NCBI GenBank assembly: GCA_017513085.1
Contig: JAFWDK010000020.1
Span: 1 to 54,802 of the forward strand
Reading direction: 5' to 3'
From: Clostridiales bacterium
GTDB lineage: Bacteria; Bacillota; Clostridia; Saccharofermentanales; Saccharofermentanaceae
Length of the DNA: 54,802 bases
The notes beneath the pieces were generated by a model. That model did no database searches and was not told the DNA's origin. It saw nothing but the letters and a program-made list of their open reading frames with translations. A program made the translations under genes and the position numbers. Shown here piece after piece: positions 20,767-54,496 of this stretch. Within the stretch, counting starts at the first letter, position 1, and every line of letters starts with the position of its first letter.

Positions 20767-21018
20767 ATTACGGTCTAAAACAGAGAAAAGCATCGTTTGG
20801 CCCGTAAATTGGGGGTGGTAAGTCTTGGCTAACTCTGCTGTTTACGGGCCAGATTACTAAAAACGTTGATTTAGCCCGTAAAAACAAGTGCTTTTTCATG
20901 GGATTTACGGGCTGGAATGAAGAAATCGTTGATTTAACCCGTAAATATCAAAGAAATAATGCAAAAAACGTAGAATATTACGGGCTATTTTGCCAATATT
21001 GTCGATCTTGCCCGTAAT
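20767..21018. repeat. Hairpin array 1 (TTTACGGGC...GCCCGTAAA modules)
   Basis: Four hairpin modules of 42 nt occur at about 20767-20808, 20841-20882, 20904-20945 and 20977-21018. The stems are of TTTACGGGC/GCCCGTAAA type, some with mismatches or G-U pairs. Modules two and three start exactly 63 bases apart. Their loops share AATGAAGAAATCG with array 2. An AGTGCTTTT word lies between two modules. Bases 21019-21199 hold two weaker stems (GGTTAG/CTAACC and TACGGTC/GACCGTA) and no gene. Confidence 0.75.
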
Positions 21019-21199
21019 AGAGATGGTTAGTGTTGACTAACCGACAGAAGGACTACGGTCTGATCCGGAAAAAGGAGTTTTTTTGACCGTAATGTATCGA
21101 TGAATTTGTTTTGTTGAAGTGCACATCGTTTTTCTCGAAAAGCACTTCCGCGCGGCGGTCTTCGTGCCCTTGAGGTGTTCTTCGGGTGTAGGGGCGAAC

Positions 21200-21237
21200 A
21201 AAAAGGTACCCCGCAGCGCTCGATCGCGCTACGGGGT
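21200..21237 (-). terminator. Intrinsic terminator downstream of the DUF4003-like gene
   Basis: ACCCCG (21208-21213) pairs with CGGGGT (21232-21237) around an inner AGCGC/GCGCT stem. On the minus strand five T follow. It lies beyond the minisatellite, so the transcript of 21601-22593 probably contains all repeat copies. Confidence 0.65.
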
Positions 21238-21304
21238 GATCGATAGGGCCCTCCAGCCCCGGCTTCCCGCCCGGGTTGTTTCGCCTTGCAGGCTCCAACC
21301 CCGG

Positions 21305-21612
21305 CTCCAGCCCAGGCTGTTCCGGCCCGCGCCGCCGCCCCGGGGCAAGTTTCTCCGTTTTTACGATGATGATGCGGCTGCGGCGGGGCCCGCCTCTCGG
21401 GCAGTCCTGCCCGGGTTTGAGATGGTGCTGTTCCAGCCCCGGCTGTTCCGGCCCGCGCCGCCGCCTCGGGGTAAGTTTCTCCGTTTTTACGGTATGATGA
21501 TGCGGCTGCGGCGGGGCCCGCCGCTCGGGCAGTCCTGCCCGGGTTTGAGATGGTGTTGTTCCGGCCCGCGCCGCCGCCCGGGGGGCAAGTTTCTCCTTTT
21601 TTACGATGATGA
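21305..21612. repeat. G+C-rich minisatellite of about 126 bp, 2.5 copies
   Basis: The landmark TCCGGCCCGC starts at 21321, 21447 and 21560, giving steps of 126 and 113 bases (the last lacks 13 bases). Each unit carries GC-rich inverted repeats (GGGCAG/CTGCCC) and a copy of the 3' end of the gene at 21601-22593 with its TAA. The repeats therefore arose by repeated duplication of that gene end. Confidence 0.75.
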
Positions 21613-22593
21613 AGCGGCGGCTGCGGAGGCGGCGGCTGCCGAGGAGGCGATGATCGCGATCTCGACGGCGATGATAGCTGAGATGATGGTGCTGATCGCG
21701 CTGTCGCGAACGGCGCTGTTGCCTGCATCGGTGTACGATTCGATCACAAGAGCGCAAGCGATCAGATCACGGATACGCTTGCCGGCGCCCATCGCGCCCA
21801 TGCCACGGATCTTTCTCAGCTTTTTACTCGTCTCGTGGATCATAGAAGCAACTTCCTGAAGATCCTCCTCGCGCACCAGCATAGCGATGGAAGCAATAAC
21901 CGAGAACGCATCCCCGGAAAAACGCAGCCCCACCTGCTTCAGTGCTTTTTGAGTTGAAACGACGCGCAAAGCTTTGTCTTCCGGACGTCCGTCAAAAATA
22001 CTGGTGATGCAAGCCATATACTGGATCCTGTTTTTCAGACGGTAGTAGTCGTGCAGAGCCCGGAAGTCATCTTCGCAACGGCGCGCGATCTGTGTTTCGC
22101 TATAATCGGAAAGCGCCATGAGTACGCAGTTGCTAAGATCTTCGCGTCCGGTGATCATGGGATGATCTCTACGGATGAGCTTATAGATCTCACGTGTTCT
22201 GGAAACGATACGGCTGTAGTCCGCGGGATCCGCATTGCTGTAGATCATATTGGCGGCCAGGACAAGATAATCGGAATTGAAAAACTTTTCGTCCAGCGCA
22301 CTGTGGATGAAACGGATAGTGTCCATCGCTACTTGCGGCTCCTCGCTCATGCTTACGGTGGCCGCGATGACCTGGCTGGCATTACCATGACCGAGCGTGG
22401 AGAAAATGCCCGTATTCGAACGGACGACCTTCTTGGCATCTCTCAACCTCTCCGGTGAAACCACGAAATTTCGCCCGATAAAAGCAGCGGCACAGGCAGA
22501 TGCCTCTAAACTGGTGTTCAAGACGTAGGCGCTTTTGGCGGCGCGGAAATTGGACTCAAAGATTTCAATGCTTCGGTTGATGTTGTTTAACAT
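21601..22593 (-). CDS. DUF4003-like protein
   Basis: A 330-residue, mostly helical protein starting at 22593, where GAGGTG precedes the ATG. It resembles DUF4003-type proteins of Firmicutes (helical repeats with motifs such as NCVLMALSDY and SIAMLV); the function of that family is unknown. The C-terminus is a hydrophobic segment (about residues 295-315) followed by an Ala/Ser tail. That tail is G+C-rich and grades into the minisatellite, so the gene end has probably been reshaped by repeat expansion. It is transcribed away from the rpsF operon. Confidence 0.7.
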   Translation of the reverse strand: MLNNINRSIEIFESNFRAAKSAYVLNTSLEASACAAAFIGRNFVVSPERLRDAKKVVRSNTGIFSTLGHGNASQVIAATVSMSEEPQVAMDTIRFIHSALDEKFFNSDYLVLAANMIYSNADPADYSRIVSRTREIYKLIRRDHPMITGREDLSNCVLMALSDYSETQIARRCEDDFRALHDYYRLKNRIQYMACITSIFDGRPEDKALRVVSTQKALKQVGLRFSGDAFSVIASIAMLVREEDLQEVASMIHETSKKLRKIRGMGAMGAGKRIRDLIACALVIESYTDAGNSAVRDSAISTIISAIIAVEIAIIASSAAAASAAAASSS

Positions 22594-23089
22594 ACAGGAC
22601 ACCTCACTTTCTGTTCGTCGATATCTTACCATTGCGCCGTTTCAGAAGTGGTTAAGGCATGTTTAAGGTTTTATATATTCGGGGCACGATTTATAAAGAA
22701 AATATTCAGCCTCGCCGGTGAGATCTTTTCTGCGCCCAAAGCACTGTTTCTTTTTGTTTTTTCTTGTTTTTGTCTTTCGCGCGTGTTCGATAGGTAGTAT
22801 AATGAACTGGTCGAAAGACATATTTATTCTCAGCCCTCACGCTGGGTGACGTGATATGATTTCCGAATGCCTGAGTGCTTCAGATTATGATACCTCGTCG
22901 GAGGTGAAAGGAAGAGGACCTGTTATCCGAAATAACGGAAAAATAGGGCTTGACGCGACCTTTTGTCTTGTGGTATGCTATCTCGTGCTGCGAAGGATGC
23001 AGAAAGCATATCTAATATGTTAATGAAATATCCTCGCTCTCATCGAAACAGGTATGAGAGCCGTTCTAGTCCAGGAGGAGGTGAAAATC
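22594..23089 (+). promoter_or_regulatory. Promoter and leader region of the rpsF operon
   Basis: Two promoter candidates face the operon: TTTCGC (22775-22780) with TATAAT (22798-22803), and TTGACG (22950-22955) with TATGCT (22974-22979), spacers 17 and 18. The leader of the second contains a stem GCTCTCAT/ATGAGAGC (23036-23061) directly followed by CCG. A CCG-bearing hairpin is the known S6:S18 autoregulatory element in rpsF leaders, so feedback control is possible. The rest shows no gene. Confidence 0.6.
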
Positions 23090-23377: not shown

Positions 23378-23400
23378 TTAACGAAAAGGAAGTAACGACT

Positions 23401-23904: not shown

Positions 23905-23905
23905 G

Positions 23906-23986
23906 GGATACGAGTCGCGAAGAACCGTATCCGGGCGGGTGGGATACATACGCCTGAATCCTGAAGCGAGATTCGGTTTTCGAATC
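23906..23986 (+). promoter_or_regulatory. Structured spacer between ssb and rpsR
   Basis: A perfect stem GGATACG/CGTATCC (23906-23932) starts two bases after the ssb stop. Downstream, GATTC near 23970 can pair either with GAATC near 23956 or, as GATTCG, with CGAATC (23981-23986). The alternatives are mutually exclusive. A switch or processing site is possible. Confidence 0.35.
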
Positions 23987-24415: not shown

Positions 24416-24416
24416 A

Positions 24417-28086: not shown

Positions 28087-28626
28087 ATGGAACGGATTTC
28101 AGATGTACTTATTTCCCGTGAGACGATCGAAGAATTTGTTAGCCGCCTGGGAGAACAGATCTCCAAAGACTATAACGGCGAGGAGATCGTCGTGATCGGC
28201 GTTTTGAAGGGCGCTTGTGTTTTCCTGTCGGATCTGATCCGTAAGATCACCTGCCCGGTGATCCTTGATTTTATGCAGGTCTCCAGCTATTTCAACGGCA
28301 CCGTTTCCACCGGCAACGTCCGGATCCGCAAGGATGTCGATCTTGATCTGGAAGGCAAGAATATCCTGATCGTAGAGGACATCATCGACAGCGGAATTAC
28401 CATGACGAGTCTTCTTCGGGAGCTTTCGGCAAGAAATCCCAAGAGCATCAAGGTGTGCGCGGCATTTGACAAGCCGAGCCGCCGTAAAGTGAATTTTCAA
28501 GCAGACTATATCGGGATGGAGATCCCGGATGCTTTTGTCATCGGATATGGTCTGGACTATGCGGGAAAATACAGAAACCTTCCCGATGTTTGTGTACTTG
28601 AACTTGATGGAGGTAACGAAACATGA
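28087..28626 (+). CDS. hpt: Hypoxanthine phosphoribosyltransferase
   Basis: A 179-residue purine-salvage enzyme joining hypoxanthine or guanine to PRPP. Seen: [13 protein letters not shown] (about residues 38-50), FMQVSSY (about 62-68), and the PRPP-binding [11 protein letters not shown] (about 97-107), followed by KPSRRKV. It sits between tilS and ftsH, the standard order in Firmicutes, and its stop overlaps the ftsH start (ATGA). Length and motifs match the family fully. Confidence 0.96.
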
Positions 28627-30716
28627 GTCAAATTGAGAAAAAGCCGATGAAGTCATTCAGCGGTCTTCCGTTCTACCTGGTCCTTGTGGTGATCCTGGTA
28701 GTGACTTCGATCTTCTTCTTCGATACTACTTCGAAGAAGTCGACATCCCTATCGGAGGCTTTGAACTTGATCAGCGACAAGACGGTAGTGAAAGAGGACG
28801 TCGTGCTCAACGGCAATACGCTGAAATTCAAGTATTATGATTCAACCACAGGTAAGAAGGCCGAGGTCAGCAAGGATGTTCCTTACGATTCTGAGGACCA
28901 TGTGCTGACGATCCTGATCGATGCGGAGAAATCCGGTGCGATCGAGAAATTCGAATATAAGCAGCCGACAGACGTAAGCGCGATCATGTCAGGCATTATG
29001 ATCGTCCTGATGGTCGCCGCCATGATCTTCTTCGTATGGCTGAATTTCTCCCGTAACGCCGGTGAGGGCAGAAACGCTATGAATTTCGGTCGAAGCAAAG
29101 CGAAGCTTCACGATCCGTCCAAGAACAAGGTGACTTTCGCCGATGTCGCGGGCGCAGACGAAGAGAAGGAAGAGCTCGCCGAAGTCGTGGACTTCCTGAA
29201 AAATCCGAAGAAGTACTCCGCACTTGGCGCGAAGATCCCGAAGGGTATTCTTCTGAATGGTGCCCCGGGTACCGGTAAAACATTGCTGGCGAAAGCTGTT
29301 GCCGGCGAGGCGGGCGTTCCGTTCTTCTCGATATCCGGTTCCGATTTCGTAGAAATGTTCGTCGGTGTCGGTGCAAGCCGCGTACGAGATCTTTTCGATA
29401 ATGCCAAGAAGAATTCACCATGTATCGTGTTCATCGATGAGATCGATGCCGTAGGCCGTCACAGAGGCGCCGGTATGGGCGGTGGCCACGATGAGCGTGA
29501 GCAGACATTGAACCAGTTACTCGTCGAAATGGATGGTTTCGGTCCGAACGAGGGCGTTATCGTTATCGCGGCGACCAACCGTATCGATATCCTTGACCCG
29601 GCACTCCTGCGTCCAGGCCGTTTCGACCGTCGTGTGCAGGTTGCCCGTCCTGACATCAAGGGCCGTGCGCAGATCCTGAAAGTTCATGCGAAGAACAAGC
29701 CTTTGGCTCCGGATGTGGATCTGAAGGAAATCGCCAAGATCACTCCCGGTTATACCGGTGCGGATCTGGCCAATCTTTTGAACGAAGCAGCTCTCCTGGC
29801 TGCCCGTAAGAATGCTAAGCAGATCACTAAAGCGGAGGTTTCCGAGGCTGTATTCAAGGTCATGATCGGACCGGAGAAGAAGAGCCGTGTGATCACGGAC
29901 AAGGAGAAGCGCCTGACCGCGTTCCACGAGGCCGGCCATGCTATCGTTCTGCGTACAGTTTCCGAGACCGAGCACGTCGAGCGTGTCTCCATCATCCCGG
30001 CAGGTGGCGCCGGCGGTTACACCGCGCATAAGCCGGATGAGGATATCTACTACACAACCAGAAAGCAGTTGATCGATTCGATCATGATCTCTCTTGGTGG
30101 CCGTGCTGCCGAACAGATCATCCTCGGCGAGATCAGCACCGGTGCTTCTTCCGACTTGCAGCACTGCAATTCCGTAGCTCGTGAGATGATCACCCGCTAT
30201 GGTATGAGTGAGAGCTTCCCGAACGTAGTCTTCGATGACGACGACGAGGTATTCATCGGTAAGAGCTACGGTCACACCAAGAGTTACAGCGATAAGTACG
30301 CGGCAATGATCGATGAGGAGATCTGCCATATTATCGATAAGGCATATAAGGATGTACTGGATCTCTTGAACGCAAGACTTTCCATCCTCAACGGTGTTGC
30401 GCAGCGACTCCTGGAAAAAGAGAAGATCGAAGGTCCGGAGTTCGAAGAACTCTACGTCAACGATGGTGTTCTCCCGGCCGGTTCGGCTTTCCTGACATCA
30501 TCTTCCGATGCTGCTTCTTCTGCTTCTTCCGACGCGGTCGGCGATTCCGCTTCCTCGTCTGATGCAGTTGCCACGCCGGCTTCTGAAGCATCCGAAAACG
30601 CGGAGAGCGACGATACCGCTTCCGAGACTACCGCGACGGCACCGGAAACAACGGAAGAGCCGACAACAGGCTCCGCAGTTCCGACCGAGATCACGGACGA
30701 CACTCCGAAGAGCTAA
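28623..30716 (+). CDS. ftsH: ATP-dependent zinc metalloprotease FtsH
   Basis: A 697-residue membrane AAA protease that removes damaged or short-lived membrane and cytosolic proteins. Seen: two membrane helices (about residues 15-33 and 118-139), Walker A GAPGTGKT (about 213-220), Walker [11 protein letters not shown], the SRH region [18 protein letters not shown], and the zinc site HEAGH (about 436-440). A Ser/Ala/Thr-rich, acidic low-complexity tail of about 85 residues is appended after the protease domain. It overlaps hpt by four bases and ends the operon before a stem-loop at 30741. Confidence 0.97.
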
Positions 30717-31389: not shown

Positions 31390-31747
31390 GATTACGGGTG
31401 AAAATGAAGAAATCGCGAATTCACCCGTAATCCGTTTCCGTGACGCCGGGTCGATTACGGGTGAAAATGAAAAAATGCCGAATTCACCCGTAATCCGTTT
31501 CCGTGACGCCGGGTCGATTACGGGTGAAAATGAAGAAATGCCGAATTCACCCGTAATCCGTTTCCGTGACGCCAGGTCGATTACGGGTGAAAATGAAAAA
31601 ATTGCGAATTCACCCGTAATCCGTTTCCGTGATGCCAGGTCAATTACGGGTGAAAATGAAGAAATGCCGAATTCACCCGTAATCCGTTTCCGTGACGCCG
31701 GGTCGATTACGGGTGAAAATGAAAAAATGCCGGATTCACCCGTAAAT
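31390..31747. repeat. Hairpin array 2, exact 63-bp period, six units
   Basis: Units start at 31390, 31453, 31516, 31579, 31642 and 31705. Each has a 43-nt hairpin (arms GATTACGGGTGAA and TTCACCCGTAATC, loop about 17 nt) and a 20-nt spacer CGTTTCCGTGACGCCGGGTC; the last unit lacks the spacer. Units differ at only a few positions. The reading frame across the array is open on the plus strand (21-residue repeats) simply because 63 is divisible by three; no good ribosome binding site is seen. The rest of 31334-31905 holds a terminator only. Confidence 0.9.
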
Positions 31748-31905: not shown

Positions 31906-33726
31906 TCAGCCGCCAAAGTTCACTCGGTAGAACAGCTCATCGCAGGGAACGCCACTGACGGTTCCGGGATAATCGCTCTTATATGAGCAGGCGATATAGA
32001 CATCTTCCGCCGAAGGATCCAGGCTCAGCACTTTGAACTGGACAAGAGCCTGCTCCGGGTAGTACGCAACAAGCGCCAGAGAGGTTCCCTTCGGAAGTTC
32101 GATCTCATCACTGAATTCACCGGAATTGTAGTTGTATTGATATGCTTTGAAAGAACGCTTGGTCTCAAGACCTGTGCCGAAAGTGGTCAGGAAGGTCTTT
32201 GTTGCCGTAGGCATACCCTTCTTTCCAAGAAGCGTCATATCTGAATAAAGAACGTGCGTGCCGGCTACATCGTCGATGAAAGAGAATACAAACTCGCTTG
32301 GGTTCAGGAATGTTTCTTCATCCAAAGAAGAGCCATCAGCCTTCACGACATCGTCGATGTATTTGATTTTGCCGTTTTCCAGCTTTAATGCATAGCAGGC
32401 AAACCAGGCATCCTCTTCACAAACGGAAAGATAGATGTACTGGCCGTCGTCGGTCTGAACGAAATAGATACCATCGCAGTCACCGTAGGAATCCGGAAGA
32501 TCTTTGGAACTGCTGTAGAGCTGCTTGCCGTTCAAAGAAATCGTGAAAGAGAATCCCCAGTCATAACTGTCGGTCTCTGCGTTGACAGAAAGCGTATCCA
32601 TTTTGCCGTCACCATCGAAGTCCCAGCAGAACTGGCCATCCGGAGAAACCAGAGAGAAATATTGCGGCGTGTGACCGAAGAAATCCATGTTGAACAATGA
32701 CGGGTTGGCGATGGCATTGACCTTGATACTATGACGGGCCCAGGAGTCATTACCGTAAATGTGGAAGGTGATGCCGTCATAGGTAAGATTGAACTGGACC
32801 GAACCATCCTGGATCGCTTTCTTGGCATACTCGGTCAGTTCCGCTTTCGTTTCATCATCTGTATAGTGATCAAGAGCCTGGATGCCCTGGAGAACGAGAT
32901 CCGTAACAGCTGCTTTGTCCTTAACGACATCGTCCAGAGTAATATCCGCTCCGGTATCGGAAAGGAAGTTGTACGACTTGACCGTGCCATCTTCGAGAAG
33001 CGGGGATTCGGTTACGACAAAAGAAACGAACTGGTTGTCGAAACGATAGCGGTTTATCATGACATCGATGTATTGTGACTCATATTTGGTGCCTTTTTCG
33101 ATATAATCAGACAACTTCTTCAGAGCAATTTTGTATTTGGCCTCCGCATCGGAAATGTGCTCACTGAGAGCTTTTTCGACAGCTTTCTTGACGTTCGGGT
33201 ATTCATCGTCGTAGAAGGTGATATTTTCCGCTCGCAAGCTTGCTGCCAGACCGAAACCATATTCGGACTGGCCGTCGTTAAAGGTGTATGCCTTACCGTC
33301 GTATTGCGGATTGCTTGCGTTGAGGTACTTAAGATCCGTATCGAACATCTTGTCAGAAACGGACGGCTTGGAAGCAGGCGTCGGAGTTGGCGCAGATGTC
33401 GGCTTCGGCGTAGCGGTCGGAGTCGGCGTAGCACTCTCAGAACTTTCGGAACTCTCAGAACTCTCGGAGCTTTCGGAAGATTCAGAAGACTCCGAGGTAT
33501 CGGAAGAGGATTCTTCCGTTTCCGTAGCAGACTCTGTAGCAGATTCTGTCGGTTTTTCTGTGGTTTCTTCCGTTGATTCTGAAGTTTCCTCAGTATCAGA
33601 GGTTTCAGCTGTTGTTGCCGTATTGGATTCACGCGTGGTGCGTGTCGAAGATCTTGTCGATCTGCGGCAGCCTGCCAGGGACAAACACATGGTAAGACCA
33701 AGTAATGCAGAAATAACTTTTTTCAT
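31906..33726 (-). CDS. Paralogous lipoprotein 1 of 4
   Basis: A 606-residue lipoprotein (start 33726; LSLAGC lipobox, cysteine 20). After the cysteine come a TRTTRES motif, a Ser/Thr/Glu-rich stalk with SSE repeats (about 35-95) and a TPTP segment, then a globular domain (about 120-606). The latter holds a LTYDGI motif and a Ca-binding-like DFDGDGKMD loop. The central part recalls DUF3298/RsiV-type domains, tentatively. It is the most downstream of four tandem paralogues read leftwards. Function is unknown; a cell-surface sensor or glycan-binding role is conceivable. Confidence 0.8.
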   Translation of the reverse strand: MKKVISALLGLTMCLSLAGCRRSTRSSTRTTRESNTATTAETSDTEETSESTEETTEKPTESATESATETEESSSDTSESSESSESSESSESSESSESATPTPTATPKPTSAPTPTPASKPSVSDKMFDTDLKYLNASNPQYDGKAYTFNDGQSEYGFGLAASLRAENITFYDDEYPNVKKAVEKALSEHISDAEAKYKIALKKLSDYIEKGTKYESQYIDVMINRYRFDNQFVSFVVTESPLLEDGTVKSYNFLSDTGADITLDDVVKDKAAVTDLVLQGIQALDHYTDDETKAELTEYAKKAIQDGSVQFNLTYDGITFHIYGNDSWARHSIKVNAIANPSLFNMDFFGHTPQYFSLVSPDGQFCWDFDGDGKMDTLSVNAETDSYDWGFSFTISLNGKQLYSSSKDLPDSYGDCDGIYFVQTDDGQYIYLSVCEEDAWFACYALKLENGKIKYIDDVVKADGSSLDEETFLNPSEFVFSFIDDVAGTHVLYSDMTLLGKKGMPTATKTFLTTFGTGLETKRSFKAYQYNYNSGEFSDEIELPKGTSLALVAYYPEQALVQFKVLSLDPSAEDVYIACSYKSDYPGTVSGVPCDELFYRVNFGG

Positions 33727-33836
33727 TTGAATTAATACTCCTTTTCTTATGATCAAAAAGAATAACCTTTTTTACTATACACCTTTTTCTTCGAAGCGGC
33801 ATATCGAATGTTGAATCCGCACTGGCACTGCGAGCA

Positions 33837-35591
33837 TCAGCCGCCGGGGTATACGATGTGTTTGAAAGCCTCAGAGATCAGGTGTCCGTCGATCTCGTAG
33901 TAATCAAATTCCGAATCCACGGATTCCAGTTTGAATGACACGAGTTCAGGATCACTGTCGTCCTGAGGGATCGTTTTCAAAACGAGAGTGGATGTATCCG
34001 GATTATAAGCGTAAGCAATAACCGGCGTGCCCTGCTTGATCGTTATCTTCGTATTGTCGTCGCTGTATTTCTGCCCGTTCAGGTCAACGGCCGGAATGTA
34101 CGGACCACTGAATCCGTAGTGGTATGTGTAGATCTGGTAGGGAACACCTTCGCCCTCCGTGGTGAAGAACTCATTTTCCATACGATTGCTGCCCAGGAGC
34201 ATGTAGTCAGTCCACATCGTGAAACTGTCCGGGTTTAGATAGGTATAGGAGACCGGCTTCCAGAAAAACAGGATGTCCCGGAAAACAAGAGACATGTCCT
34301 TGCCTTTGATCTCGAAGACAAACATCTCACTGTAACCATCGCCGGACTCCGCCATCAGGTACAGGAAATCGCCATCCTCAGTATGCATGATGAACGCATG
34401 CTTAACGACACCATGTGCTTTTTTATCGGTAAGATCCTTAAGGTCCGTGGTCTTGCCGTTAATAGTGATCTGTATGTCAAAAGAACCGTCGTCGTTATAC
34501 TTGGAATCCACATGGAAGGTGTCGTTTTGGCCGTCATAGTCGAGATCCCAAAGAAGATCCATGTTCCGGTCCAAGAATACCGTGAAATTGGCAGGCGTCG
34601 CCTGGAAATATTTCTGATCCGCAAGGGCGAGACCTTGGAGAGGAATCTTGACCCAATCGCCTTCGTATGGATCAGAGATCGAGTCGAAGACGAAGATGCC
34701 GTCGTAAGTCAGTCCGAAGGGGAAATCTTCGCCATACTTTCCGAGAAGGTCAGCCTTGGTCTCGTCGCTGCAGTATTTTCCGACAAGTTCGAAAAACGCA
34801 TCCTTGTCCGTGATAATGTCGTCGATCTCAATCGATTTGTCAGTATACACATCCACATTTATGACCACACTCTCGGCGTTACCGGTTTTGCGGTTGGCCC
34901 CGATAAGCGCAAGCGAAAGCATTTGCTGGTCCGCACGGAAAAGCTCTGTCTCGTAGAAGATTTCTTTCGACTCGAGTTTGTCCGGCGCTGTGGCGGCCGT
35001 CTTTTTAAACTCTTCTACGTTCTTGTCGTAGTTCTCCCGGTAGGAGTCAATGATCTGTTCGTACATGCTGTCGAGTTCTTCGGAGAAATCCTTATACTTA
35101 TCGTCACCGTTATAGATCTCATAATACGGGCAGATCAGCTTGACCATGGCCTGACCGACTTTGTCGTAAGTGCTTTCGTTATCTACGGCGTAGCATTCGA
35201 AATCGTAGTCGCGCTCGGCTTCCAGATCGTCCAGGACGGGGCCTCGGAGAGTAGAAGGATCCACACTGCCCGGCGCGGAAGACGGGTCGCTGCCTGACGG
35301 GTCAGAAGGATCCGAAGTGGAAGAGGAGGTCGGTTTGGTTGCCACAGTCGTAGCTTTGGTCGTTCCCTTCGTCGTCTCTTCGGTGGTTTCCTCTGTAGTT
35401 TCCTCTGTGGTCTCTTCGGTCGTTTCTTTCGAAGTTTTGGATGGCTTCTCGGTTTCCTCAGTTTCCTCAGTCGTGTTTTTTTTGGGCTCTCCGCTTTCAC
35501 GGATCGTACGTGTGCCATTCGGTTCCGACTTGCAGCCCGCTAACGAGAGGACCATCGATAATCCGAGAATGACCGAAATCAGTTTTTTCAT
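33837..35591 (-). CDS. Paralogous lipoprotein 2 of 4
   Basis: This 584-residue lipoprotein has lipobox LSLAGC (cysteine 20), TRTIRES shortly after it, an ETTEETTEE stalk (about 38-80), and the globular domain shared with its neighbours. Landmarks are GLTYDGI and DLDYDGQND, the latter equivalent to the DxDxDG loop of paralogue 1. The stalk composition differs from the others (Glu/Thr repeats) while the flanks stay similar, so the stalk evolves by repeat slippage. The ATG at 35591 has AAGGAGG upstream. Confidence 0.8.
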   Translation of the reverse strand: MKKLISVILGLSMVLSLAGCKSEPNGTRTIRESGEPKKNTTEETEETEKPSKTSKETTEETTEETTEETTEETTKGTTKATTVATKPTSSSTSDPSDPSGSDPSSAPGSVDPSTLRGPVLDDLEAERDYDFECYAVDNESTYDKVGQAMVKLICPYYEIYNGDDKYKDFSEELDSMYEQIIDSYRENYDKNVEEFKKTAATAPDKLESKEIFYETELFRADQQMLSLALIGANRKTGNAESVVINVDVYTDKSIEIDDIITDKDAFFELVGKYCSDETKADLLGKYGEDFPFGLTYDGIFVFDSISDPYEGDWVKIPLQGLALADQKYFQATPANFTVFLDRNMDLLWDLDYDGQNDTFHVDSKYNDDGSFDIQITINGKTTDLKDLTDKKAHGVVKHAFIMHTEDGDFLYLMAESGDGYSEMFVFEIKGKDMSLVFRDILFFWKPVSYTYLNPDSFTMWTDYMLLGSNRMENEFFTTEGEGVPYQIYTYHYGFSGPYIPAVDLNGQKYSDDNTKITIKQGTPVIAYAYNPDTSTLVLKTIPQDDSDPELVSFKLESVDSEFDYYEIDGHLISEAFKHIVYPGG

Positions 35592-35695
35592 GAAGCGCCT
35601 CCTTCTCCTTTATGCGTTCAAATTATATGTTCGAATTATACGTTCAAGTTATATGTTCAAGTCCTACGGCAATGCCGGAAAAACTGAGAATGTCA

Positions 35696-37474
35696 TCAGC
35701 CGGCATGAGAGACGTAGTAGAAAAGCTCATCTGCATCTATGCCCTGGATCGTGTAGGAATAGTCACCATCCTGGACCAGATCGAATTTGACGCAGTAACC
35801 ATCGTCTTCGACTTCTGTGCAGACATTAAAATAGATGGCGGAGTAATTGGAATCAAGAAGATACAGTGACAAGGTCGTGTCAGGCGCGATCGTGACATCC
35901 TCGATCTCCTCGCCGGTCGAGATATCGACCTTTTTACCCTTGATCTCCTGCTTGGTCGTAAATACAGTAGCGCTACCTTCCAGATAAGGATACAAGGGAT
36001 GCAGGATGCCCTCGCCGCCGATCAAGGACATGTACTGCCTCATGTATACAGTGCCGACAACTCCGAAATTGTAAAGTCCGACAGTGAAGTTGGCCGGGTC
36101 GATACAGAAAGCCTCCGTGAAGTCAGCCGGAACTTCGTCCTGAATGAAAGTCAAGCCGTTGCCTGTGATCTTGTAGACATACGCATACGTATAGACATCT
36201 TCCGGACAATACAACAAATACAGGTAATAGGACTCGCCGTCGTTGAAGACGACGAGATCTTCGTACGAGCTACCTTCAAAAATGTCGGTATTCGGCGCAT
36301 GGAAGATCGTACCGTTGATGTTGAGCTCGATATCCTTGATTTCATAGTAGTGATCCTCGTCATATACGGCACGTACGGTATCCGTTGTGCCATTCTCATC
36401 GAAATCCCACGTAATGGTCTCGTTAACGCTGTCCGGCTTCAGATTGAAACGCTCCGGCGCAGAACCGAAGAAGCTCATGTCAAAAATCTCCGGATGGTCT
36501 GCCGCACAGATCAGAAAATCGTAGTAGGCATTCGAAATGATAAAGTTGTTATAAGTCAGACCGAAAGCAACGTTTCCGCTCTCGATATCACTGAGCATCT
36601 GCGTTTCATTGGCAGGATCATGGAGAAGACCCGAAATGAGAGAAGCAAGTGCTTTTGGATCCTTAACGACATCCGAGTAATTGATCTTTTCGCCGGTCTG
36701 CGTGTAGAAAGCGAAGGACTCGTAAACGTAATCGTCGTGGTCGCCGACTGCGGTTTCGCCGATCACGGAGATGATCTGGCTGTCATTGCGGCACGGGTAT
36801 AAGAAGTAGTTGAAAGCAGACGAATCGAGTTTGGACATGTCCTGCTTTTCCTGTGCGATAAATGCTTCGCGGGCCGCATCGTACTGGTCAGCGACCGCAT
36901 TCTGCCTCGGGTTGATCGCGCCGTCGAGCACATTGAAAAGATCTTCATACGAGTCGTCGTTTCCTAAGTCAAAAGCATCGATGTAGCAGCGGACGTAATC
37001 GGGTGATAAGATGTCTTTTCCGCTATTCTTGTGCGTCGCGCCGTACACATAGAAGATCGGGAATACCTCGAAGTCGACATATTCCAGACTTCGGTCGACC
37101 TTGAACGAATCTTTGTGTGGGAGTACCTGGGCGGAAGGCGCGGAAGTATCCGAAGGTTCAGATGTCGTATCGGAAGTCGCCGAGGTCAGACTCTTGGTCG
37201 GTGTTTTGGCCGTGGTCGTATCTGCAGTTGTATCTTCAGTCGTATCCTCCGATGTTTCTTCCGTAGTGGTATCTTCGGTCGTTTCTTCGGTGGTCTCGGA
37301 CGGATCGTCGGTTTCATCCGTATCGTCCGTTTCTTCCGTGGTCGTTACCTTAGTCTTGTCGGCTGACTCCCGGATCGTCCGGGTCTCTTTTTTGTTGTCT
37401 TTGTCTTTGCAGCCCGTAACCGCCAAAGACAAAACCATCGACATGCCAAGGAGAAGAACAAGTGCTTTTTTCAT
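35696..37474 (-). CDS. Paralogous lipoprotein 3 of 4
   Basis: A 592-residue lipoprotein starting at 37474 (AAAGGATG upstream), with a signal ending in LAVTGC (cysteine 22), TRTIRES, a Thr/Glu/Asp stalk (about 45-95), and the shared domain with GLTYNNF and DFDENGTTD. The frame contains an AGTGCTTTT word at its start (37461) and another at 36648. The second half ends IDADELFYYV, close to CDELFYRV of paralogue 1, which confirms common descent. Function is unknown. Confidence 0.8.
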   Translation of the reverse strand: MKKALVLLLGMSMVLSLAVTGCKDKDNKKETRTIRESADKTKVTTTEETDDTDETDDPSETTEETTEDTTTEETSEDTTEDTTADTTTAKTPTKSLTSATSDTTSEPSDTSAPSAQVLPHKDSFKVDRSLEYVDFEVFPIFYVYGATHKNSGKDILSPDYVRCYIDAFDLGNDDSYEDLFNVLDGAINPRQNAVADQYDAAREAFIAQEKQDMSKLDSSAFNYFLYPCRNDSQIISVIGETAVGDHDDYVYESFAFYTQTGEKINYSDVVKDPKALASLISGLLHDPANETQMLSDIESGNVAFGLTYNNFIISNAYYDFLICAADHPEIFDMSFFGSAPERFNLKPDSVNETITWDFDENGTTDTVRAVYDEDHYYEIKDIELNINGTIFHAPNTDIFEGSSYEDLVVFNDGESYYLYLLYCPEDVYTYAYVYKITGNGLTFIQDEVPADFTEAFCIDPANFTVGLYNFGVVGTVYMRQYMSLIGGEGILHPLYPYLEGSATVFTTKQEIKGKKVDISTGEEIEDVTIAPDTTLSLYLLDSNYSAIYFNVCTEVEDDGYCVKFDLVQDGDYSYTIQGIDADELFYYVSHAG

Positions 37475-37513
37475 AGTCGAATACATCCTTTCAAATAATT
37501 TGATCTGTCAATA

Positions 37514-39274
37514 TCATCCCCACATATCCTGCTCGATGCCGTAGAATGCTTCGAAATCGGGAACGCCTGCGATAAGTGTGTTATAGTCTTCATCTTCGGT
37601 GACCTTGAAAACGTACTGTTCACCGATGGTGTTGGTGGTGGGGAGTTTCTCCAGCACGATCTCGCCGCGCTCAGGCGAATAGCCGACGATAGCGAAAGTC
37701 GTCTCTGCCGGAACGGTGACTTTTTTATCCGTAGGTTTGCCGAGAAAGTCTGCCATTACGCCGGCAAGCTCTTGCTTCGAGATCGGCCCCGGTGCGTAGG
37801 AGGTGTAGTATTCGCTAAGATTCGTCGGCAGGCCGTCGCCCTGTGTGAGCGAGACGGGCATATAGTTCAGATGGAACGAAAGCATGAAAGAGCGATAGTA
37901 AGTGTTACAAAAACTCGGATCCATGTAATACTTATCCTCGATGAATTCTCCGATAAAACCGCAGAACTCCGGCTCATTTTCACCGTTCAGACGGTACACA
38001 TACGTGTCTTCTTCGGCATCGGTCGCTTTGCAGGTGCAGTACAGGTTGTAGTTGTTGCCGTCAAATACGAGAAAAGCACGTTCGAAGTTGGCTGTCAGAT
38101 CGTTATCAGCCGGATCTGTAAACTCGTACGTTTGTCCGTTGATCCCGATGACAAGCTTGGCGGAAGGGAAGTCGTATCCATCCTTGGTATACTCCTCGAA
38201 GCTGACTTTCAAAACATCCGCCTTGCCGTCGCCCGTCACGTCCTTGGAAAGCGTCTGGTCGACATCGAAGAAAAGCGTGTAAACATCCGGCGTCTTGCCG
38301 AAATAGTCCATGTTCACCAGGTCCTCGTGGCCGGCGACCGGGATCTTGAGCCAGATCTGGGAAGAAAACAAATCGGGATTATAGAGATAGATGCCGTCGT
38401 AAGTAAGACCGAAGGCGGCTTCACCGTCCGAAAAATCGTGCGCGATCATCTTGGCCGTATCGCTTCCGAAAAAGGAGGCGAAAACTCTTTCCTCTACGAC
38501 CTTTGCAAAAGCACTTCTGTCTTTGACCACGTCGTCGATCGTGAGTGGGGCCTGAGTCTTGGTATTGTAGTTATAAGTGTAGATCTCGCCGCAGTTGATG
38601 ATGGCAAAAGAAACGATCTGACTGTCCGTGCGGAAGCGATCGAGCGAATAGTCGAAGGTGTCGGATTCGGGGCTGGTGCCTGCGGCGTCCGCTTTATTCA
38701 GATCTTCGACACACTTGTTATACTCGCTTGTTTTCGAAGCGATAAGCGGATCGAATATTTCCTCGTAGAGTTTCTCTTCGAAGTCGGAATAATTCTTGTC
38801 GTTGAAGTGAAGGAACGGGCAGTCCAGCGTGCTTGTCGCACTCTTGCCGTTATCGGAAGTCTTGTCTTTCACGACAGTGCCCTTCCGGATATGGTCGACA
38901 TAACTGAGAAGATAAGCGGGGACTTCATTCGGATCTGCCGACGGGTTCGTACCGGATGACTCCGACGTGTCTGAAGTGTCCGATGTATCCGATGTCTCTG
39001 ACGTTTCGGATGTCTCGGATGTCTCGGATTCGGATCCTGAGGTTTCTTTTGTGGTATCTTCGGAAGAAGCACTGGTCGGAGTTTCCGTGGTTTCCTCGGT
39101 AGTCTCTTCCGTGGTCTCCTCGGAGGTCTCTTCGGTAGTCTCCGTCTTGGAGGTGGAAGATTCTTCCGGATCTTTGGTTTCGCGTGTAGTTCTGGTGCCG
39201 GAAGGTTCACGTCTGCATGAACACATGGATAACACCAAAACCGCGCTAAGGATCAGCGCAATTTGTTTCTTCAT
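37514..39274 (-). CDS. Paralogous lipoprotein 4 of 4
   Basis: The first gene of the leftward cluster, 586 residues. The signal ends LSMCSC, a less canonical lipobox with probable cysteine 20, then TRTTRET, an ETTEE stalk and a (SE)T(SD)T repeat (about 40-105), and the shared globular domain with GLTYDGI and DVTGDGKAD. It ends differently from its neighbours (FEAFYGIEQ). AGGAGAAAG precedes the ATG, and the promoter should lie in 39275-39366. All four genes are within about 110 bases of each other and are probably cotranscribed. Confidence 0.78.
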   Translation of the reverse strand: MKKQIALILSAVLVLSMCSCRREPSGTRTTRETKDPEESSTSKTETTEETSEETTEETTEETTETPTSASSEDTTKETSGSESETSETSETSETSDTSDTSDTSESSGTNPSADPNEVPAYLLSYVDHIRKGTVVKDKTSDNGKSATSTLDCPFLHFNDKNYSDFEEKLYEEIFDPLIASKTSEYNKCVEDLNKADAAGTSPESDTFDYSLDRFRTDSQIVSFAIINCGEIYTYNYNTKTQAPLTIDDVVKDRSAFAKVVEERVFASFFGSDTAKMIAHDFSDGEAAFGLTYDGIYLYNPDLFSSQIWLKIPVAGHEDLVNMDYFGKTPDVYTLFFDVDQTLSKDVTGDGKADVLKVSFEEYTKDGYDFPSAKLVIGINGQTYEFTDPADNDLTANFERAFLVFDGNNYNLYCTCKATDAEEDTYVYRLNGENEPEFCGFIGEFIEDKYYMDPSFCNTYYRSFMLSFHLNYMPVSLTQGDGLPTNLSEYYTSYAPGPISKQELAGVMADFLGKPTDKKVTVPAETTFAIVGYSPERGEIVLEKLPTTNTIGEQYVFKVTEDEDYNTLIAGVPDFEAFYGIEQDMWG

Positions 39275-50414: not shown

Positions 50415-50811
50415 GGATTCATACCTTTTTTGCGGGGTTATACCTTTTTCTCTCGAATTCATACCTTTGAGGCAAAAAACGTCAAAAGGTATGAATTCTT
50501 GATGCTCGGGAGAGGGTGATTTCATACTTTTGGAAGAAAAAAGTTGAAAAGGTATGAATTCCTGGTGCTCGGGAGAGGACGGATTCATACCTCTGGGGCA
50601 AAAAACGTCAAAAGGTATGAATTCTTGGTGCTCGGGAGAGGGCGGATTCATACTTTTGGAAGAAAAAAGTTGAAAAGGTATGAATTCCTAGTGCTCGGGA
50701 GAGGGCGGATTCATACTTTTGAAAGAAAAATGTTGAAAAGGTATGAATTCCAGGTGCTCGGGAGAGGGCGGATTCATACTATTTGAAGAAAAACGATGCA
50801 AAAGTATGAAT
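50415..50811. repeat. Hairpin array 4, exact 63-bp period, six units
   Basis: TTCATAC starts at 50458, 50521, 50584, 50647, 50710 and 50773, all 63 bases apart. Each unit has a 40-nt hairpin (ATTCATACCTTT with AAAGGTATGAAT) and a 23-nt spacer such as GTGCTCGGGAGAGGG. Unit six has compensating changes in both arms (ATTCATACT/AGTATGAAT). Partial copies precede it (from about 50415). The rest of 50383-51042 contains a promoter only. Confidence 0.9.
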
Positions 50812-51042: not shown

Positions 51043-54000
51043 ATGAAGTCAGGAAAAATGACGACGCTGAGGCGGGTCAGACTCGCCTCGGTGGTTCTTG
51101 CGTCTGCACTTAGCCTGCCGATGATCTCAATGCTTGGGATCGCGAAGACAGCGAAAGTACGCGCAGCCGAAAAGAACGAGCAGAACACGCAGTTAGGCGT
51201 GACACAGATTGCGGAGCCGGTAGTACCGACAGATTTTACGGATCCGTGGAAGGGAAGTTATGTGTATTACGGAAAGTATGACGGGGAGCCGATCATGTTC
51301 CGTGTACTGGATACCGATGCGACAGACTTCGGAGCAGAATCGCTCTTTCTGGACAGCGATAAGATCCTTTTTGATGCAAAGTATAACAACGTTTACAAAC
51401 TGACCGTCTGGGACGAAAGTGACCTGCACTACGCCCTCAACGGAAGTTCTTTTCTCACAAAAGAAGGCGTCTTCACAGACGCGGAAAGAGACGCTATTTT
51501 ATCGAGTACAGTTGAAACGACACCATTGGAGGGACTTGATCCGACGCCTATGTCGATTTTTAAGAACTACATGGGACTAAAGGGTGACAAGATCTTCCTT
51601 CTGGACGCCAGAGATCTTATGACAGAGAAATATGGATATGAGAAAGTCTACAACGGCGGAAACAGCCTGGTTTCATCAAATGGCCGTGTGAAGCGGTCAC
51701 TTACGGGTGGGAAACTGAATTACTGGCTGAGAACGGCCTGCTATAGTGCAAGTTCTACTCTGGTCCGTGAGGTCGGTAGTTTCGGTGCTACAAATAATAC
51801 TAATATTCCTATTGGAGTAGCTCCGGCGATGAATATCACCAGAGGCTCGATCCTGTTTTCCTCTTTGATTTCCGGAAATGCCGGGGAGGTCGGAGCCGCT
51901 TATAAGCTCACGATCAAGGATAGCGGATTGAAGGTTACCGTTCCTTCCGACAAAAAAGTGGTCCTGGACAATAACAAGATCACGATTCCGTATGAAATCA
52001 GTGGGGCCCGCGCTGGAGAAGCGACGCAGCTCTCGGTTTTGGTTACGGATAAAAAGTACACGGAAAAAGACGCGAAGATCCTCCTTTACGGCCAAGTCAA
52101 TGAAGAAGGCGCTCTTGCCAAGAAGGGCGAGGTATCGGTTACACTTCCGGATACGGTTGCCGGTACATGTGGTGATGATTATTTCGTTTACCTTATTGCG
52201 GAAGACGTGAACGGCGAGTATGAGACGGATTACGCGAGTGAACCGTGCGAGATTTCTGTCGACAAGAGAAGTATTTATATTGACCTTCGCGAACAAACGG
52301 CCAAGATCTCCAATCTTGAAGCAACATCGATCTTCCTCGCAGTGCTTACCGAGGTCGTGACGTCCCGTAGTGAACACAAAGTTGAACCTGGTTTCGGAGA
52401 AGGTGTATTTTTGTATATCGATCTGGACAAGGACGGCAACGAAGACTTTATGTGGTCTCTGGATTATTCGACAATGGTGAAGAGACTTCCGACGACCAAT
52501 ATCCGAGGAACGTATTCGATTGGTGAGGAGGATCTGAAAAAACTCCAGCTTGATTCCTTTGATTTCGAGTTTGCGAGAACTCTGATCCCGGATGTTTCCG
52601 TCGATGTAAAAGCACCTGCCTTAGGTGAGAAGCCGGATTATTCTTCTGTGCTTCCGAATGATGTGCATTACTATACTGTTGCCAATACTGTTGATCCTGA
52701 TTTAATGAAGGATGGTGTGGAGTGGATCGATGTAACTGCCAACACACCTCTGAACGTGACTGCGAATGAAAAATTCAAGGCGAATCATCAGTATTCCGTG
52801 AACATCCTTGTTTCGGCAGAAAATGAATATAAATTCAGTTCGTCAACAAAGTTTACGATCAATGGAAAGAATCCTTCAAAAGTTACCGTTTTGGAAGATC
52901 GGCTGGCTTTGGTCGAGTACGAGTTCGCCAAACTGGTGCCGACCAATACACCTACTCCGACTCCAAAACCGGCGACGCCGACGCCTACAACCAAGCCGGC
53001 AACGCCGACACCTACAGCTAAGCCTGCTACCCCGACTCCGAAGCCGGGCACGCCTGGCCAGCCGACTCCGACCACTGCGCCGGGAAATCCAGGCAAGCCG
53101 GGTGATCCGACAGTCACACCGAAGCCGGGCACGCCGGGTCAGCCGGGCCAGCCTACTCCGACCACTGCACCGGGAAATCCAGGCAAACCGGGTGATCCGA
53201 CAGTTACACCGAAGCCGGGCCAGCCTGGCCAGCCTGGCCAGCCGACTCCAACGACGGTTCCGGGCAAGCCGGCTCCGACAGAGGCTCCGTCAAAAGAACC
53301 GACGTTTAAGGACTTTGTGGAAAGACTGTATGTCATTGCTTTGAACCGTGCCTCTGAGCCGGAGGGTAAAGCTTTCTGGGTTTCAAAAGTTGAGAACGGT
53401 GAATACAATGGCGCTGACTGCGCGCGTTTCTTCCTTCTCGAAGCACCGGAGTTCATGAACCGTGGCCTCGGCGATGAGGATTTTGTCGAGATCCTTTATA
53501 GGACATTCTTTGACCGTGCATCCGATGCGGCCGGAAAGAAGGGCTGGGTCGATGCGATCAAGTCCGGAAAGATGACACGTGCACTCGTGGTTGAGAACTT
53601 CATCGAGTCCACCGAATGGTGCAATATCTGCGCGACCTACGGCGTCCGCTCCGGTGCGAAGTGGCACAAAGCCGAGTTCGCTTCTAAGAACGCGATCAAC
53701 TTCGCCACACGCCTCTACACCTGCTGCCTCGGCCGTGCGGCGGAGGATGCCGGCCTGAAGTACTGGAGTCTGGCACTTACCAATCTCGAACAGACCGGTT
53801 GCAGCGCAGCAAAAGAATTCTTCAAGAGCGCAGAGTTCGTCAACCTTAAACTTAAGGATGACGAGTACGTGAAGAGATTGTATAAGACCTTCATGGATAG
53901 AGAGCCGGAAGCATCCGAAGTCGCTTACTGGGTCGGAGAAATCAATGCCGGCCGCCAGACCCGCGACAGCGTGCTGAGCTTCTTCGGTCAAAGTGAAGAG

Positions 54001-54048
54001 TTCACTAAGATCTGCAAGAAATACGGTATCGAGCGCGGCGAGATCTGA
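51043..54048 (+). CDS. Secreted DUF6273/DUF4214 protein
   Basis: A 1001-residue exported protein. The start at 51043 has GGAGGTGG upstream; the frame itself opens at 51013. Seen: a signal peptide (about 1-40, ending AKVRA-A), a DUF6273-like domain (about 65-275: VYYGKYDGEPIMFRVLD, SLFLDSDKI, YWLRTA and GVAPAMNI), a beta-rich middle (about 285-620), a Pro/Thr/Gly linker (about 634-755, TPTPTPKP then GNPGKPGDPT repeats), and a DUF4214 region (about 757-1001) nearly identical to that of 44026-47586. Function is unknown; the module mix suggests a secreted glycan- or matrix-associated protein. Confidence 0.87.
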   Translation: MKSGKMTTLRRVRLASVVLASALSLPMISMLGIAKTAKVRAAEKNEQNTQLGVTQIAEPVVPTDFTDPWKGSYVYYGKYDGEPIMFRVLDTDATDFGAESLFLDSDKILFDAKYNNVYKLTVWDESDLHYALNGSSFLTKEGVFTDAERDAILSSTVETTPLEGLDPTPMSIFKNYMGLKGDKIFLLDARDLMTEKYGYEKVYNGGNSLVSSNGRVKRSLTGGKLNYWLRTACYSASSTLVREVGSFGATNNTNIPIGVAPAMNITRGSILFSSLISGNAGEVGAAYKLTIKDSGLKVTVPSDKKVVLDNNKITIPYEISGARAGEATQLSVLVTDKKYTEKDAKILLYGQVNEEGALAKKGEVSVTLPDTVAGTCGDDYFVYLIAEDVNGEYETDYASEPCEISVDKRSIYIDLREQTAKISNLEATSIFLAVLTEVVTSRSEHKVEPGFGEGVFLYIDLDKDGNEDFMWSLDYSTMVKRLPTTNIRGTYSIGEEDLKKLQLDSFDFEFARTLIPDVSVDVKAPALGEKPDYSSVLPNDVHYYTVANTVDPDLMKDGVEWIDVTANTPLNVTANEKFKANHQYSVNILVSAENEYKFSSSTKFTINGKNPSKVTVLEDRLALVEYEFAKLVPTNTPTPTPKPATPTPTTKPATPTPTAKPATPTPKPGTPGQPTPTTAPGNPGKPGDPTVTPKPGTPGQPGQPTPTTAPGNPGKPGDPTVTPKPGQPGQPGQPTPTTVPGKPAPTEAPSKEPTFKDFVERLYVIALNRASEPEGKAFWVSKVENGEYNGADCARFFLLEAPEFMNRGLGDEDFVEILYRTFFDRASDAAGKKGWVDAIKSGKMTRALVVENFIESTEWCNICATYGVRSGAKWHKAEFASKNAINFATRLYTCCLGRAAEDAGLKYWSLALTNLEQTGCSAAKEFFKSAEFVNLKLKDDEYVKRLYKTFMDREPEASEVAYWVGEINAGRQTRDSVLSFFGQSEEFTKICKKYGIERGEI

Positions 54049-54088
54049 ACGGGCGCTAACGAAACATTCGATAAAATGAGATGAATGA

Positions 54089-54131
54089 ACCCCTTGCGAA
54101 GTGGACGCCACGTCGCAAGGGGTGTTTTTTT
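54089..54131 (+). terminator. Intrinsic terminator
   Basis: ACCCCTTGCGA pairs with TCGCAAGGGGT (54089-54123), then seven T (54125-54131). It ends the gene at 51043-54048. Confidence 0.9.
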
Positions 54132-54230
54132 ATTTGCGAGCTTTCATATTTGCATGTTGCCGGACGGATTTATCTCGAAAGCACTCGATGGACGATATTA
54201 ATCTAACTGAACTAAGCAGTTTCATGCCCG

Positions 54231-54496
54231 GGTTAGATCATTTGACTGGTTTTGTATCGTATGGTCTAACCTGTTTCGAGCCTGAGTTAGATCATTGGAC
54301 TGGTTTTGTATCGCATGGTCTAACCAAGTTCCATGGCCGATTAGCGCAAGTGGGTATATTCAACGTGTTTGAGCTAATCTTATCCTCATGTCCTGTCACC
54401 TTTGATTAGCGCATTTCGCGATTTTTCGTCATGTGGTCTAACCAGGGGTAACTTTTGGTTAGCGCATTTGCGACAATCTTGCCAAAAGCGCTAACC
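54231..54496. repeat. Hairpin array 3 (GGTTAGnnC type), five units
   Basis: Hairpins of 40-41 nt lie at 54231-54271, 54285-54325, 54339-54379, 54404-54443 and 54457-54496. The first three start 54 bases apart. Arms change from GGTTAGATCAT/ATGGTCTAACC (with a G-U pair) to GGTTAGCGC/GCGCTAACC. The rest of 54132-54600 is A/T-rich and shows no gene. Confidence 0.75.

Follow-up and report, generated by a model that had tools for sequence, protein, structure and literature searches.

In parS, iteron and centromere-like arrays, phased tandem protein-binding sites lie by the gene of their binder, and pneumococcal BOX elements, like other MITE-like repeats, are intergenic and modular with a variable number of inner units. 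No enzyme is known to us that is both linked to the latter and paired with their sequence. A further comparable system is REPIN-RAYT. As described in parts of PMC3116915 and PMC8266576, its repeats cluster at the enzyme gene, non-autonomous copies are dispersed, each enzyme paralogue has its own repeat class, and the two co-diversify. TIGR-Tas loci, as described in part of PMC12045711, carry two alternating repeats of 8–12 nt by a single gene, with a sequence that varies between loci.

We analysed a stretch of 54,802 nucleotides from a Clostridiales bacterium (the window), in which an earlier note had recognized tandem hairpin arrays at four loci. The arrays are real and their positions were confirmed (Table 1). 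They are rows of 8–13 bp words in alternating orientation, and the reading towards which we lean, by a little, is that these rows are matched to predicted nucleases encoded next to them, each of which likely binds its own word and may spread the arrays as non-autonomous mobile DNA. As in REPIN-RAYT, clusters of short inverted repeats adjoin one enzyme gene, non-autonomous copies are dispersed in trans, each enzyme paralogue goes with a distinct repeat class, and enzyme and repeat diversify together. Unlike the HUH/Y1 transposase of REPIN-RAYT, the enzyme is PD-(D/E)XK-like in its AlphaFold2 model and had no transposase match in Pfam; the linked enzyme at which the earlier note had hinted exists, but it is not of RAYT type. 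The repeats are helically phased words of double-stranded DNA in long tandem arrays, in contrast to single-stranded palindromes with a GTAG foot. No palindrome of 20–50 nt with a tetranucleotide foot (mostly GTAG in REPIN-RAYT) was found: the words are short arms whose partner arm lies half a unit away, and by eye the consensus words share no tetranucleotide. Arrays and enzyme are best read, by analogy, as a system that resembles REPIN-RAYT but uses an unrelated nuclease, and not as a member of REPIN-RAYT. The arrays also resemble BOX and other MITE-like repeats, from which they differ by their linked enzyme with a matching word, and parS, iteron and centromere-like arrays, from which they differ by the predicted nuclease, the additional dispersed arrays and a word that changes between related species.

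Table 1. Features of the window discussed in the text
Feature	Position	Strand	Description
Predicted PD-(D/E)XK nuclease P0001, 274 aa	19893..20717	+	Coiled coil with beta tip and C-terminal nuclease domain
Array 1	20766..21093	.	10 alternating arms, word TTTACGGGC/GCCCGTAAA, diverged units at the ends
ftsH	28623..30716	+	Pfam M41/AAA; conserved anchor for between-species comparison of the array 2 site
Array 2	31390..31747	.	12 alternating arms of GATTACGGGTGAA; solo array
Array 3	50415..50811	.	Alternating arms of ATTCATACYTTT; solo array
Array 4	54231..54500	.	Alternating arms of GRTTAGMTCA; solo array

Array 1, which starts ~50 bp past the stop of the P0001 gene and extends beyond the end given in the note, to about 21093, has same-orientation steps of 74, 74, 63, 63, 73, 73, 75 and 75 bp. 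All ten steps of array 2 are of 63 bp, as is each step of array 3 from 50457 onward, with two irregular arms preceding that position (50417 and 50436). In array 4 the steps are 54, 54, 64–65 and 53 bp when arms with four mismatches are excluded, inclusion of these weak arms adding steps of 40–43 bp to the scripted list; an extra in-phase arm may lie at 54208. Exact 63-bp steps in three arrays, as had been claimed, were not confirmed. The accessory-gene neighbours reported for all four arrays do not apply to array 2, located ~670 bp downstream of ftsH (present in 22 of 23 genus genomes). A stem held constant at each locus and differing between loci is what we find within the window, but not genome-wide, as stems recur on other contigs. 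With its constant architecture and drifting sequence, the family is a real one, as had been proposed, and consistent with the absence of a named element, the arrays had no Rfam match. Inverted pairs exceed chance, with 105 counted across 455 kb where Markov controls averaged 21.5; the sample was partly picked around arrays, and ordinary terminators are included in the count.

P0001 had no Pfam or NCBIfam match at E 0.001 or 1, and a single insignificant one at E 10; the family start aligns to its Met11 (base 19923). Its AlphaFold2 model (pLDDT 94.3) has a nuclease fold by VIA-align, corresponding to the restriction-endonuclease-like fold of the PD-(D/E)XK superfamily. Three residues of catalytic type, E170, D201 and E216, show no variation among 79 sequences; on comparison with the E...D...ExK active site the residue following E216 is H217, and no position could be assigned to the canonical catalytic lysine. 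Few of the 110 homologues bear a name, in each case ‘hypothetical protein’, and the carriers are gut and rumen Clostridia.

The nuclease gene and the word are coupled. All five nuclease copies of the source genome (G000), one of them broken, lie near an array, the nearest arm being 42–328 bp away. They correspond to five different words, four of which are those of the window arrays: array 2 shares its word with the broken copy (C4:16248–17055), array 3 with the nuclease at C32:22532–23332 and array 4 with that at C24:62777–63565. The gene is present in 21 of 23 genus genomes. An array score of at least 13 in the better flank was obtained for 57 of 78 genus matches; among single background windows, 1 of 120 placed at random and 1 of 87 centred on intergenic sequence reached it. 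At least three hairpins in one flank were found for 51 of 78 matches, compared to 32 of 2000 windows. Loci below the array threshold number 21 of 78 in the genus and 12 of 23 among distant relatives. The side on which the array lies is not fixed (30 upstream, 27 downstream, n = 57). The nuclease genes themselves occupy fixed orthologous loci, which is the pattern of a resident gene and counts against mobility.

The spacing of the words is quantised. Among 394 genus steps of 40–90 bp, 304 are at 52–54, 55 at 62–64 and 9 at 73–75, with only 6 at 55–61 and none at 65–72; a few steps, of 46, 58 and 59 bp, are off phase. Classes of 83–85 and 94–95 bp also occur outside the genus, and the step classes from 52 to 95 bp represent 5–9 turns of B-DNA. 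Of the 76 steps of 50–96 bp in arrays outside the genus, 73 are at most 2 bp from a multiple of 10.5, where 29 would be expected; the medians of 12 arrays give R = 0.81, a value reached by 10 of 100 000 uniform draws. Phasing is weaker if only arrays scoring at least 13 are retained (10 arrays, 135/100 000) and weaker still if the one array that mixes steps of 72–73 and 83–84 is represented by its median value (R = 0.63 for 11 arrays, 1094/100 000).

This spacing bears on the initial proposal that the units are RNA hairpins serving as terminators, RNA decoys or small-RNA precursors. The stems are perfect over 9–13 bp, with loops of 16–20 nt, and paired differences are found between units, such as TACGGGTGA/TCACCCGTA and TACGTGTGA/TCACACGTA. 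However, spacing follows helical turns, and the G-U pairs taken as a sign of selected pairing are not favoured, amounting to 239 against 264 A-C mismatches on the gene-sense strand of 57 related arrays. Divergence is about sixfold higher in the sequence that separates the words (16.7%) than in the words themselves (2.7%). Terminator-like sites are not in excess: a scan that allows only loops of 3–8 gave a single site for array 1, where a GGTTAG palindrome lies on the minus strand (0.5 on average after shuffling), and no site for arrays 2–4. Together, quantised spacing, G-U count, between-word divergence and terminator scan point to words that are sites on double-stranded DNA, and RNA hairpins, also lacking an Rfam match, appear barely credible. 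An RNA-guided TIGR-Tas-like system is highly unlikely as well. It would account for two alternating short repeats by one adjacent gene, with variable segments between them and a repeat that changes from locus to locus. The repeats here are nevertheless reverse-complementary, with a period of ~52–95 bp instead of a 36-nt unit and without 9-nt spacers, no Nop domain was matched up to E 10 in four paralogues, and the resemblance to TasH is limited to the coiled coil; membership of TIGR-Tas was rejected.

The stems of the window were found again on several contigs of the source genome. The class A stem, whose nuclease lies on C4, recurs on C14 (two places), C7, C4 and C6, the class B stem on C10, C32 and, degenerate, on C34, and the class C stem on C24, where BLAST gives only E 0.4 and the stem is clear by eye and by array scoring. 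The word of G012 forms at least seven solo arrays within that genome; that of the G020_C113 nuclease was found in 1 of 23 genomes, G020 itself, at two solo places. The word of a solo array tends to be that of the nuclease in its own genome, and this extends to orthologous sites at which the species differ from one another. At three orthologous sites with 11 solo arrays, the own-genome word takes first rank, ties included, in 7, a result equalled in 0 of 2000 permutations; it is weaker (7 arrays, 19/2000) without G012 and G000, the genomes that led to the choice of the sites. Three of the 11 (in G013, G015 and G010) mismatch their own genome. The mismatching array of G015 fits the nuclease of a sister of G015, and G010 has a solo array without a nuclease match. 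All three sites carry solo arrays in some species and lack them in others, and the G012 arrays at csoR and lepA are missing in its relative G022, where no nuclease was matched at E 1e-20. From this distribution we infer that arrays move.

Words diversify fast at fixed nuclease loci. Word similarity follows protein similarity over alignment columns 1–60 (Mantel p 0.001), predicted to form the beta tip on the coiled coil, and not over the rest of the protein (p 0.44 and 0.50). We infer binding, cutting and spreading by the nuclease along the following lines. The beta tip would read the word, the protein likely binding its own word on double-stranded DNA; dimers or a higher assembly would line up on one helix face along the array; the nuclease domain would cut within or near it, and repair or copying could then expand, homogenise and disperse the array.

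A resident DNA-binding protein that bridges phased arrays and organises or regulates the chromosome, with no role for cutting or mobility, would agree with the fixed orthologous gene loci, with helical phasing as that of a bound scaffold, with class A arrays persisting beside a broken gene and with the unfixed position of the array relative to the gene. We hold it to be unlikely, as the catalytic-type residues are invariant and solo arrays vary between species at the three tested sites, unlike a conserved regulon. More doubtful is a defence or addiction module, with arrays as decoys or storage for a toxic or anti-phage nuclease freed by array loss or foreign DNA. The nuclease domain does resemble the C-terminus of the phage-defence candidates PDC-S68 (E 5e-25), and fast word diversification at fixed loci is arms-race-like; yet no relative was confirmed when viral contigs were scanned by pattern, although weak ones occur in two short records of a phage collection that bear no annotation, and G010 keeps its array without a nuclease match.

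Under the preferred reading of word-matched nucleases, sequence alone provides a ‘hypothetical’ protein family with a predicted activity, with a target and with a candidate segment for specificity. The lifestyle of an enzyme with dispersed repeats, known from REPIN-RAYT, would then have been reached a second time by an unrelated route. We tentatively suggest, at somewhat less than even confidence, a new class of selfish DNA that is also a natural DNA-recognition code, in which a compact nuclease would read an 8–13 bp word via its beta tip, assemble on phased alternating copies and disperse them in trans. Since the word probably read by a nuclease is on show in the array by its gene, public genomes could suffice to learn such a code, which is then open to direct testing. 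If so, dozens of orthogonal nuclease-word pairs would already exist in nature, with several in one genome, and from one related species to another the word and the tip would change jointly while the locus stays fixed. Genome-wide word turnover parallels, in a simple bacterial form, the evolution of centromeres or of PRDM9.

The class B locus on C10 is a nuclease-less copy: 429 bp are shared, at 89.7% identity, with the stretch beginning ~25 bp past the stop of the C32 nuclease. Neither a target-site duplication nor a transposition intermediate was identified; this copy is flanked by perfect 73-bp direct repeats. Class A arrays are among the most uniform, although the class A nuclease is broken.

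All four arrays reported in the earlier note are present in the window, array 1 extending to about 21093 (see table). An Rfam search of the window gave a tRNA as its sole match, leaving the arrays without an Rfam family. The stems had been described as locus-specific; this description was not upheld, because the same stems recur elsewhere in the genome (G000: 3.06 Mb, 36 contigs, the window being contig C15). The class A word was found in five further places, the class B word in three (one degenerate) and the class C word in one.

The gene ending about 50 bp ahead of array 1 encodes a 274-aa predicted nuclease, for which Pfam and NCBIfam gave no match of any weight. Its C-terminal sequence also lies just upstream of arrays on contig C32 and in two relatives, and nuclease copies were therefore searched for in the genome. 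Five were found, one of them broken, and each has an array nearby whose word differs from those of the other copies. The window's four arrays thus use four words, each belonging to a different paralogue.

Arrays, nuclease copies and other features (window positions unless a contig or locus is named; distances are from nuclease match end to array)
Feature	Position	Word or sequence	Distance or step
Array 1	20766..21093		steps 74, 63, 73, 75 bp
Array 2	31390..31747	class A, GATTACGGGTGAA	step 63 bp
Array 3	50415..50811	class B, ATTCATACYTTT	step 63 bp from 50457 onward
Array 4	54231..54500	class C, GRTTAGMTCA	steps 54, 54, 64-65, 53 bp (arms with 4 mismatches set aside)
Nuclease copy C15	19893..20717 (+)	TTTACGGGC	56 bp
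Nuclease copy C21		GTCAGTG	328 bp
Nuclease copy C32		class B	141 bp
Nuclease copy C24		class C	42 bp
Nuclease copy C4		class A	57 bp
Long array, contig C23	C23:32705-33411 (L173 about 1076-1850)	GATAAGACCA/TGATCTTATC	
G005 array	L036 1501-1674	TACGTGTGA/TCACACGTA and TACGGGTGA-type arms	
88-bp direct repeats	1871-1958, 5796-5883		
tRNA	5864-5953 (-)		
Iterated 9-mer	e.g. 8623, 21138, 38507; L038-L057	AAAAGCACT/AGTGCTTTT	
Four successive ORFs	31906-39274 (-)		
ORF start	54680-54802		
Clustered sites	L050 3358-3480	TGTTTCACGTGAAACA	

Of the 23 genomes of the genus, 21 had matches to a profile built from five nuclease sequences, 79 in all; the analysis took 78 of these, a few of them partial, and excluded the second half of the broken C4 gene. 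In a best-8-mer scan, the better flank reached an array score of at least 13 at 57 of these 78 loci, against 1/120 random and 1/87 intergenic-centred single windows. An independent hairpin count gave at least three hairpins at 51/78 loci versus 32/2000 windows. The array lies upstream of the gene at 30 of the 57 loci and downstream at 27. Across the class, nuclease relatives occur in 31/391 genomes (18/223 genera); in a capped set with one locus per genome, 23 of 29 new loci were scanned (six weak or partial matches excluded) and 11 had an array scoring at least 13. Where records are named, they are genomes of rumen, gut and other anaerobes, most of them metagenome assemblies of Clostridiales; Saccharofermentanaceae, Lachnospiraceae and Butyrivibrio are among the names.

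Within an array, orientation alternates from word to word in most cases. Steps between words of like orientation were counted in the 57 genus arrays, with the proviso that neither steps from a single array nor arrays inherited at a single locus are independent of each other: 394 fell within 40-90 bp and 17 outside. The main classes were 52-54 bp (304), 62-64 bp (55) and 73-75 bp (9), the others being 40-44 bp (10), 46 bp (1), 50-51 bp (9), 55 bp (4) and 58-59 bp (2), with none of the 394 at 65-72 bp. Array medians were 52-54 bp (43), 63-64 bp (6), 73 bp (1) or irregular (7). Some arrays contain steps of two classes, one or two turns apart: 63 and 73-74 bp in G000_C15, 42 and 54 bp in G014_C47, 54 and 75 bp in G020_C96. 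Off-phase steps are few (46 and 58 bp in G006_C83, 59 bp in G020_C113). Outside the genus, arrays scoring at least 13 have steps of 52-55, 61-63, 72-76 and 83-84 bp, and two regular, lower-scoring arrays 84-85 and 94-95 bp; 73/76 steps lie at most 2 bp from a multiple of 10.5 (29 expected). The medians of twelve arrays, four of which come from one genus (two with a common word), gave R=0.81, equalled by 10 of 100000 uniform draws. The corresponding figure was 135 for only the ten arrays scoring at least 13, and 1094 (R=0.63) when the array mixing 72-73 and 83-84 bp was added to these ten by its median. Spacing of this kind is the signature of sites that lie on a single face of B-DNA.

The words differ less than the sequence between them: in nine orthologous array pairs, with word positions defined on one of the two, differences affected 21/768 word sites and 330/1975 other positions, gaps being mostly 1 bp. 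An RNA stem predicts G-U commoner than A-C on the sense strand. G-U (239) was not in excess of A-C (264; by locus 24 vs 25, 8 equal), which disfavours an RNA-stem reading of the arrays.

Many of the nuclease genes lie at a locus shared between species. At one such locus the species are 76-90% identical in flanking DNA and 58-66% in the protein, and the words are, by species, TAGTCCCAC, GATAAGATC, GATAGGATC and TGATCCC. Among 52 loci (1326 pairs), 14/14 pairs above 80% protein identity have a common word; the fraction among the 1200 pairs below 50% was 0 (to two decimals). With three protein segments in one regression, word similarity tracked the first 60 alignment columns, roughly residues 11-70 of the 274-aa protein (Mantel p 0.001), and was not associated with the nuclease domain (0.50) or with columns 60-145 (0.44). 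The correlation is highest over columns 21-50, corresponding to residues 31-60. The AlphaFold2 model (pLDDT 94.3) has a tip in this region, made of strands 43-49, 52-58 and 65-67 and placed between two long helices. The C-terminal domain aligns structurally with Bax1, Vsr and other PD-(D/E)XK nucleases; Foldseek alone gave no match with E <0.001. In the G005 array, two types of arm occur together and a change in one arm of a unit is paired with a change in the other, giving a snapshot of word change.

Words also recur in solo arrays, away from any nuclease gene. G012 has a single array-linked nuclease, whose word is in at least seven solo arrays of that genome and has matches in 3/22 other genomes: at the array of a related nuclease in both G005 and G007, at one further place in G005, and on C23 in G000. 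The C23 array has more than 12 units of a word related to that of G012, and the genome-copy search gave no nuclease match on this contig. The G020_C113 nuclease word is present in G020 alone. At three orthologous sites (ftsH, 22 loci used; lepA, 19/22; csoR, 18/19), 11 arrays scored at least 18, and the own-genome nuclease was best or equal-best word match for 7 (reached in 0 of 2000 label permutations with all 11 arrays and in 19 of 2000 once the two genomes that first pointed to the sites were removed). Own-word arrays carry three different words at ftsH (G000, G021, G008, G012) and three at csoR (G012, G002, G008). For the G012 lepA array the own word came third, after relatives with a similar word; the G015 array has the word of its sister's nuclease, the G013 array matches no nuclease of G013, and G010 has an array and no nuclease match.

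Gene-array linkage, phasing, own-word solo arrays and word-tip correlation are direct observations. We infer that the nuclease reads sequence and acts on, homogenises and disperses its own arrays: the predicted enzyme would bind the word, cleave array DNA and mobilise the arrays, a functional parallel of REPIN-RAYT. At csoR and lepA, arrays are present in G012 and absent from its close relative G022, which has no nuclease match. The solo class B array on contig C10 has 429 bp in common, at 89.7% identity, with the stretch that begins about 25 bp past the C32 nuclease stop; this solo array is flanked by perfect 73-bp direct repeats. In the C32 array, a unit at the edge reads ACATCCTTTTGA, near to AATACATCC, the word of the G013 orthologue (73% identical). 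These observations suggest turnover and dispersal of arrays. Against the proposed mechanism count the nuclease genes at fixed loci, the broken nuclease adjoining uniform class A arrays and the lack of junction evidence, no target duplication or intermediate having been identified. The strongest rival is a resident, DNA-organising role for the nuclease.

The 9-mer is iterated throughout the genus, mostly within ORFs: 114 copies in 455 kb of G000 versus 6 in an order-2 shuffle, and 196 in 526 kb of genus loci versus 6 in a shuffle. No copy occurs in about 56 kb from 7 named loci that belong to other families or are of uncertain family, and the 9-mer resembles an uptake-signal or Chi-type word. 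Several sites tightly clustered in L050 match the usual parS consensus. Three of the four successive minus-strand ORFs (584-616 codons, repeat-rich stretches) were tested against Pfam and gave no match; the ORF continuing past the contig end resembles, by eye, a HigA-type antitoxin. The perfect 88-bp repeats, the second overlapping the tRNA 3′ end, enclose about 3.9 kb that includes a gene for a transposase-type HTH protein and ABC transporter/MacB-like genes, and are possibly the att sites of a small island.
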